This document shows, piece by piece, positions 4,349 through 7,409 of a stretch of 64,000 nt of DNA. Made by a program: the position numbers and the translations under genes. The stretch lies in assembly GCF_000004075.3 (NCBI RefSeq), contig NC_026657.2:248001-312000 (forward strand), read 5' to 3'. A model generated the notes under the pieces. That model ran no database searches. It was not told the DNA's origin and saw nothing but the letters and a program-made list of their open reading frames with translations. Position 1 is the first letter of the stretch. Each line of letters begins with the position of its first letter. This DNA is from Cucumis sativus. Lineage: Eukaryota > Streptophyta > Magnoliopsida > Cucurbitales > Cucurbitaceae.

Positions 4349-7300
4349 ATGAGCAGAGGGCTTGGCTGTGGAGGGAATGAGAATAATAATAACGATAATA
4401 AAAGAGGGTTGAATACCATTCCAAGCTTACTGCGAAAAGCGCTCTATTCTATTTGCCGCGCCTCTGCCCCTCCTTCTCCAATATCTTCCGCTCCCATCTC
4501 CTCCAAGTCAACGACCTCAACATCAATGGCGGATGCTACCGAGACTCTTAAAACCAAGGTTTGCGTTATTGGGAGTGGCCCTGCTGCCCACACTGCTGCC
4601 ATATATGCCGCCCGTGCCGAGCTCAAGCCTATTCTCTTCGAAGGATGGATGGCCAACAACATCGCTCCCGGCGGCCAGCTCACTACAACAACCGACGTTG
4701 AAAACTTCCCTGGATTCCCCGAAGGCATTCTTGGCATCGAACTCATGGACCATTGTCGCAACCAGTCGCTTCGCTTTGGCACTCAGATCTACACCGAGAC
4801 CGTAACCAAGGTCGATTTCTCATCCAAGCCATTTAAGGTCTTTGCCGATTCGAAAACCGTCCTCGCCGATTCTGTGATTGTCGCCACTGGTGCGGTTGCC
4901 AAGCGATTGACATTTCCTGGCTCCGGTGAAGGGAATGGGTTCTGGAATCGGGGTATTTCGGCTTGCGCTGTCTGTGATGGAGCTGCGCCTATTTTCAGAA
5001 ACAAGCCCTTGGCGGTCATTGGGGGCGGAGATTCTGCCATGGAAGAAGCCAATTTCCTCACCAAGTATGGCTCCAAAGTGTATATTATCCACCGAAGAGA
5101 CACTTTCAGAGCTTCCAAGATCATGCAACAGCGCGTCTCCAGCAACCCTAAAATCGAGGTGATCTGGAATTCGGTGGTTAAGGAAGCTTATAGCGACGCT
5201 AATGGGCGAGTCCTGGGAGGTCTGAAGGTCCATGATCTGATCTCCGGAAAGGTTTCTGATTTGGCAGTTTCCGGATTGTTCTTCGCTATTGGTCACGAAC
5301 CAGCCACCAAATTCTTAGATGGACAACTGCAACTCGATTCTGATGGGTATGTGTTGACGAAGCCAGGCCAGGGACGACGCATACCAGTATCCCGGGAGTC
5401 TTTGCTGCTGGCGATGTTCAGGACAAGAAGTACAGACAAGCTATCACTGCCGCTGGTACAGGTCAGTAAAAATGTTTCTGCTTTCCATAATTATTTTCCT
5501 TCTTCCTTGTGCCTGTTTGTCACCAGACATGGCCATAAGTGAGGTAAAAACTTCAAGAAAAATACATATTAGATTTGAAGATGAATGTGTATTAGATTAT
5601 GCAACAAAAAGTTTACTCCGAACTGTCTATATCCAAGTCTATTGCAAATGTTGCATTTAGTTTCTAATATATCTGATAAAATATAGAAAAATGAAATGAT
5701 TGAGGTCCACGAGAACGAACTTCCAAACACTTGGTGCCTGTGTCTTGAGGCGTTAGGGACACCGCCAGGCTAAAGCTTTTCCTCATAAAAACATTGCTTG
5801 AGTGAAACAATGTTTTGCTATTTTATTTGTAAAAACGGATACACACGTTCAAATATTTAGTGTACTTGAATACATAACCTAAATTGTGAAGGACAGGGAG
5901 CACATAACATCAATTTTACCTCCTAGGAACTGTTTAACAAGACATGCATACTAGTTGATCTAAATAGGAGAAGATAAAGAATTCTCTCCCTAATTTAATC
6001 AGGATATGAGGTCCGATTAGCCCAAATAATGGTTAGCAAGTAATTTAAGGAGGCTGCATGTGTTGTGCACCATGAAGCCTTAGAATAGGTGGTAATTTCC
6101 CGATCAGTCTCGAAATTTGTCTCTAACCGTTGGAGAGCTGCTTCTATCCCTTTTAATCCAAATTATCCAGAAAATACAAGTCACTCACGTACTTCCTCGA
6201 CTTCATCGTGTGTGAATGTGTATGGAAGAGGGAAATTCATAAAATAATTAATTTTAAAGTTATTTTAGAAACAACTTTTATCATTGAAAAAAAAGTGAAA
6301 GAATACAAAGGCAAATTAAAAAAACAAGCCCAACAAAAAACAGTCCCGCCAAAGGAAGGGGATGAAACTAAGATTAATGTTTTCTAGCGAATAGTTAAAA
6401 AAGAGGAAAAACTTCGAAACCGTGTGGTGAAAGGGGTGAAAAGCACAGACCGTCCTTTTTTGTTGTACCGGTGTGTGCCTTTAATTCCAAAGAACCCACT
6501 AAGATTAATTTTGAGGTTGTTTCATTGTTATAACATTTAAGTCCATATCAAAAGAAATCCTCCACTAACATTTTAAGTCCAGATCAAAAGAAATTCTCCA
6601 CTCGTTTTCCTCTCTCCTTTATTATTTCCAGAACGTTATATATCTTATCTGCTCATGCCTCTGTGGACACACTTGAGATAAACGTATTGATCACAACTTG
6701 GCCAAACCCTACTGGGACTTTGCTTCTACCTTTTCCAATTTCTCTTCGTGAAGGGAAGCACTTCTACTTCTCCCTTTCTTCCCGATGCACAAGGAGGTAT
6801 AGGAGGGAAATTACTTTAGGATGGAGAGAAAAAGGTGTGAGCGTGGAATTGTGTAGCAGGTATTTGGGCAATATATTATTTAATGGTGTGGAATTGTATA
6901 GCGTCGCCCCAAAGAGGATTCTATTATTAGGCCTAAAGTGAAATGAAAAGCTAACATGCTTAAATCCCATATGAAGAACTCTAAATAATATTGGATGGGT
7001 TTTCATGGCTATATTTACGAGGAGTTGCTAAAATATTAGTGGAGCCGCGCTTCTTTGAACGTGCAGATGTGACAGTGAACCTGATTCATGATTGAGAAGT
7101 AGGAGCACTGAATTATATACATATGTATTATTATTATTATTATTCATGGCAGTGAAAGTTATTTGTCGAAGTTTAGACAATGGGACTTACCTCATTTTAA
7201 ATTTAGTCCCCTGTTCCTTTTCCTTGTAAAAAAAAAGTTACTTTTGTTCGAAAATCATGTCTTTCTTTCACTTGTCCTTCATAAAGGTTGATCGAATGAA

Positions 7301-7409
7301 GTTGCTTCCTTTCCTAATATTTATTTGCTGTGGTACAGGTTGCATGGCAGCATTGGATGCGGAGCATTACCTGCAAGAAATTGGTTCTCAAGAGGGGAAG
7401 AGTGATTGA
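4349..7409 (+). CDS. NADPH-dependent thioredoxin reductase (NTRA/NTRB type), frame broken by a 5-bp duplication
   Basis: This is a plant flavoprotein that passes electrons from NADPH to thioredoxin h/o in cytosol and mitochondria. There are two exons: 4349-5461 and 7339-7409, with a 1877-bp GT-AG intron. Visible motifs are the FAD-binding GSGPAA (residues 75-80), the redox-active CAVC (206-209), the NADPH-site GGGDSA (225-230) and HRRD (248-251). Exon 2 encodes the conserved C-terminus ending GKSD. Met1 begins a Ser/Ala-rich 59-residue extension like the mitochondrial form; Met60 (4526) would start the short cytosolic form. At 5363-5372 the bases ccagg occur twice in tandem. Deleting one copy restores the family sequence (KPG then TT...GVFAAGD), giving about 392 aa. 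As written, the frame shifts after Gly340 and the second FAD motif is lost. Spliced, the shifted frame would end near 7506. The cause is either a real null allele or an assembly error. Family identity is certain; functionality is not. Confidence 0.93.
5363..5372 (+). repeat. 5-bp tandem duplication (ccagg x2) inside NTR exon 1
   Basis: Two adjacent copies of ccagg lie inside the codons for the conserved Lys-Pro-Gly-Thr-Thr stretch. The reading frame before them and the frame after them both match the thioredoxin reductase family perfectly but differ by 5 nt, so the duplication is the simplest cause of the frame break. Confidence 0.9.

Follow-up and report, generated by a model that had tools for sequence, protein, structure and literature searches.

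A tandem CCAGG in a cucumber thioredoxin reductase gene is very probably a consensus error, in a stretch that seems to be falsely duplicated

A repeated 5-mer breaks the frame of the NADPH-dependent thioredoxin reductase (NTR) gene analysed here, and we consider it highly probable that this repeat is an error of the consensus sequence, in a stretch that was probably duplicated falsely; a natural NTR null is unsupported. In the plant itself, the locus most likely holds an intact, ordinary NTR gene. The window is the whole 64-kb stretch C3:248001-312000, C3 being the 40.9-Mb pseudo-chromosome 3, and the gene lies on its plus strand. The preliminary description of this DNA had set a real null beside an assembly artefact; the artefact has since gained ground and the null has lost it, as the same assembly contains two intact copies with identical proteins. 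The features are as follows.

Window 1-21073, no strand assigned: right-hand part of copy B, where copy B is C3:138988-269073 and copy A is C3:13899-138990.
Window 4526-5461, plus strand: exon 1 of the NTR gene, in copy B with the 5-bp insertion (sequence and family match; PF07992).
Window 5363-5372, plus strand: CCAGG CCAGG, the frame-shifting tandem 5-mer, a single CCAGG in both other assembled copies (three-way comparison).
Window 5462-7338, plus strand: intron of 1877 b; its length is 1876 b in copy A and 1872 b in the copy on the unplaced contig C48 (copy comparison).
Window 7339-7409, plus strand: exon 2 with the protein end and the stop (TGA), without difference among the three copies.

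The window sequence has CCAGG twice in tandem, at 5363-5367 and 5368-5372, within the reading ACGAAG CCAGG CCAGG GACGACGC; the insertion-bearing reading of the window copy at the site is CCAGGCCAGG. The Lys-Pro-Gly codons occupy 5360-5368, the frame is lost after residue 281, and the frame of the NTR family is back from the ACG at 5374, which agrees with the earlier claims that a repeated ccagg breaks the frame and that the correct frame resumes at this position; the end of the protein was likewise rightly placed in exon 2. Whilst the window exons (936 + 71) do not add up to a multiple of 3, those of copies A and C48 do (931 + 71 = 1002). The predicted spliced product of the window has 367 aa, namely 281 native residues and then an unrelated tail, and the unspliced frame from 4526 ends at the stop at 5542. 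We took the ATG at 4526 as the start because the match to the Arabidopsis enzyme 1VDC begins there, a further in-frame ATG lying upstream at 4349; we placed the start codon and the splice sites (donor GT at 5462) by the sequence and its match to the family.

Perfect tandem 5-mers are common in the window (291 start positions, homopolymers excluded and longer repeats counted per position), so it is only by comparison with the other copies that CCAGG is shown to be an insertion; a repeat search of 5300-5450 set to lengths of at least 6 did not list it. We set aside a chance tandem 5-mer, as the other copies show an insertion, and programmed frameshifting or a frame-rescuing alternative splice site is a needless device when the extra bases are missing in both of the two near-identical copies.

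The identity of the gene, assigned to the NTR family in the preliminary description, was borne out from two sides. PF07992 is found in the unspliced window frame 4526-5542 (E=1.1e-40, residues 11-279), and an alignment of the intact copy-A protein with 1VDC, the NADPH-dependent thioredoxin reductase of Arabidopsis, spans residues 5-333 (E=1.3e-186) and stays colinear across the insertion site; NTRA/NTRB type is the label that we assume for plant NTRs resembling 1VDC. Against the TIGR01292 cut-off of 343.45, the copy-A protein scored above it at 377.1 bits, and the unspliced window frame 4526-5542 below it at 307.8 bits. The window frame contains a pyridine nucleotide-disulphide oxidoreductase domain and the CAVC site, which we take to be the redox active site of thioredoxin reductase and which stands before the break. 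A C-terminal segment that includes AAGTG, presumably the FAD-contacting one, is missing from the window's written frame, in keeping with the loss of an FAD-contact motif ascribed earlier to the shift; it is present in copies A and C48, and in copy A it is aligned with 1VDC. The likeness to the Arabidopsis protein thus extends over the 333 aa encoded by copies A and C48 (positions 5-333 in the copy-A alignment, CAVC included), and over residues 1-281 of the window copy, which are the same as in the other two; the difference is that residues 282-333 are lost in the written frame of the window copy only, through the 5-bp insertion.

The genome searched comprises 226,625,048 bases in 88 sequences. 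A DNA search with window 5000-5800 gave four matches, the window itself included: two at 99%, at C3:122937-123732 and C48:349541-350336, each of which is shorter by 5 bases, and one on C6 at 73% identity. With the first 281 residues, a protein search gave seven matches, three at 100% (the window, copy A and C48), a C6 paralogue at 83% whose frame is open over the part searched, and three pieces on C4 at 37-65%. By their sequence, the C4 pieces look like a more distant reductase gene, presumably NTRC-like after the Arabidopsis family. The search for a second intact NTR gene, proposed at the outset, therefore succeeded twice, at C3:122463-125340, 130 kb upstream on the same pseudo-chromosome, and at C48:349067-351940 on the unplaced contig, besides the C6 paralogue. 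Both copies contain one CCAGG and an intact frame, and their 333-aa proteins are identical.

Copy A is followed by copy B in direct tandem, the stretch measuring ~125-130 kb, and there is no N run at C3:138988-138990. Identity ends at window 21073 (C3:269073 / C3:138990). When the window was compared with C3:1-200000, window 1-21073 was the sole match above 800 b, and no near-identical second copy of window 21074-25000 was among the best 40 of 2050 matches to a whole-genome query with 19000-25000. Elsewhere, the 600 b across the C3:138988 junction were matched only as two separate halves, and A and B agree in every letter over their first 54,167 bp. We judge that this tandem duplication at the start of pseudo-chromosome 3 is very probably false. 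That the first 21 kb of the window belong to a multiply assembled stretch is invisible from the window alone.

The pattern of differences among the three copies carries most of the argument. Our comparison of A with B took in four stretches of ~53 kb together (C3:79938-97939 against C3:210001-228000 standing outside it) and gave 47 differences, 46 indels and a single substitution; at 39 of the 46 indels, it is B that has the extra bases. In the pairwise alignment, B and A are separated by no substitution at all in C3:238001-269073, the NTR gene included. C48 ends inside the stretch, at base 363065, and was compared over 340001-363065 only: it differs from B by 80 indels and one substitution in 23 kb (pairwise alignment), and its alignment with A has 70 gap openings and one mismatch. 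Substitutions generally outnumber small indels in real duplicates, and indels almost free of substitutions therefore point to residual long-read consensus errors, and not to divergence. The verdict on the 5-mer does not depend on the duplication being false, as the indel-dominated pattern would point to errors in young true duplicates too.

A three-way vote on the MAFFT alignment, over 85 variable sites, found C48 to be the odd one at 69, B at 13 and A at 2, with one undecided; the CCAGG 5-mer is B-only. This alignment counts nine substitution sites, seven with C48 odd, against one in the pairwise B/C48 alignment, and two with B odd, both in one TA-rich tract (~16102-16113) where the pairwise alignment reads gaps. 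Further B-only insertions, in neither A nor C48, flank the finding (2 b at 4276 and 6 b at 8760-8765), and the density of A/B indels is uneven, one stretch of 2.3 kb having 10 and another of 10 kb having 17, next to 54 kb without a difference. Another B-only extra base, at C3:245655 (2345 bases left of the window), falls within an open frame of copy A that matches a calcineurin-like phosphoesterase, and so NTR is not alone in being affected. Two features count against a consensus error: 40 of the 46 A/B indels are of 1 b, so that the 5-bp insertion is longer than most, and 59 of the 69 C48-odd sites are missing bases, unlike the extra bases of B.

The copies also differ in one larger feature. 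Copy A has one repeat of ~395 b (A:67671-68065, in C3:60001-70000), whilst copy B has a pair of them separated by 4,555 b, in C3:190001-200000. The whole element of ~5.3 kb occurs near-identically at several more genome places, and the repeat alone at many more (best 27 of 816 and best 40 of 382 matches); from this arrangement, we interpret the B version as an LTR retrotransposon and the A version as a solo LTR. Among those same matches, C48 has the full element, without the sequence that lies left of it in C3, and no C48 match to C3:10001-16000 was among the best 40 of 1624. It thus appears that a near-identical repeat is the point at which the three versions part or come together again, which is how misassemblies behave. 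Beyond the LTR-like element, however, C48 departs from the other versions in its left flank, so the versions are not one contig repeated, which counts against our preferred explanation.

How could such an error have arisen and survived? The consulted parts of the paper on cucumber 9930 v3, from which the present sequence would derive, describe a meta-assembly of six PacBio assemblies (two CANU, four FALCON) with FinisherSC merging, then two rounds of Pilon polishing with minmq 10, in which 156,931 small indels were corrected (PMC6582320). We posit that this meta-assembly placed the start of pseudo-chromosome 3 twice in direct tandem, and part of it a third time on C48. Short reads used for polishing would map equally well to all copies, or better to the correct ones; where the assembly has two or three copies of a stretch, mapping quality would fall near zero, and minmq 10 would disregard such reads. 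The erroneous site in the window copy would then be left without confidently mapped reads, and the extra bases would stay. That the duplication is itself false, and that multi-mapping blocked its polishing, is what we infer from these settings and the observed pattern.

There is a precedent in what was consulted of PMC8081667, where short indels in CLR consensus are the commonest errors before polishing and cause frameshifts, and where false duplications attract reads and thereby affect polishing. The false duplications with unpolished CLR indels described there resemble the present case in their near-identical copies, which differ almost only by indels, and in a coding frameshift. They differ in size, as the homotype duplications of that account are about as long as a read and the stretch here is ~125-130 kb and directly tandem; a contig-merging step would therefore be the likelier origin here. 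On the other side of the argument, the 9930 v3 authors, in the same consulted parts of their paper, split contigs in conflict with the genetic map, found the alignment to v2.0 without obvious errors and checked for misassembly by Hi-C, and these checks left the stretch in place, which counts against a false duplication (PMC6582320). No paper in the literature searched describes a false duplication for cucumber 9930, the parts consulted of PMC6582320 and PMC12395194 contained no statement on this locus, and the titles and opening lines of abstracts on cucumber thioredoxin reductases had nothing on this gene.

It is worth considering whether the duplication could be real and the 5-bp insertion alone a consensus error, in which case line 9930 would carry two NTR genes, both intact, close to the start of chromosome 3. 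The indel-dominated pattern would persist in true recent duplicates, perhaps also beyond the reach of polishing, and the published linked-read and Hi-C scaffolding, as far as the consulted parts of its description go, kept the stretch (PMC6582320). Yet the end-to-end abutment, the 54 kb of perfect identity and the differing LTR-like arrangements are more typical of misassembly, and we regard a real duplication with an error in it as improbable.

More improbable still, in our view, is that both events are real, i.e. that a very young tandem duplication of ~125 kb was followed by a 5-bp mutation that is newly turning one NTR copy into a pseudogene. If true, this would be a newborn NTR pseudogene caught at its first mutation, in a very recent 125-kb duplication of line 9930. 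The junction is gapless, real recombination can yield a full LTR-like element in B against a single repeat in A, and a near-absence of substitutions would be expected here too. However, 46 indels against one substitution would be unusual for the divergence of duplicates, and the third copy, on C48, is richer in indels still; moreover, 54 kb without a difference adjoins indel-dense stretches, and the versions are resolved in different ways around a multi-copy element whose copies are near-identical, which is a usual place for a misjoin. Compared with the intact copy, the window copy shows neither the substitutions (pairwise alignment of C3:238001-269073) nor the further decay expected of a pseudogene, and a very young null would show no decay either. 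Finally, the idea that a single NTR gene is truly broken in the sequenced plant and that the intact copies are the errors, which the window sequence taken by itself would favour, is the least probable of all, since both other copies agree on the intact reading and this reading fits the family to its last residue.

Reading the 5-mer as a consensus error within a falsely duplicated stretch, as we favour, keeps cucumber from being wrongly credited with a natural thioredoxin-reductase null. Its implications reach further than one gene: for the first ~269 kb of pseudo-chromosome 3 and for C48, reads are needed before any gene copy number, frameshift or presence/absence call is trusted, and genes in the stretch are counted two or three times. 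At the very start of the contig, self-alignment shows C3:1-10000 to be a tandem array that repeats every ~356 b, satellite-like in character.
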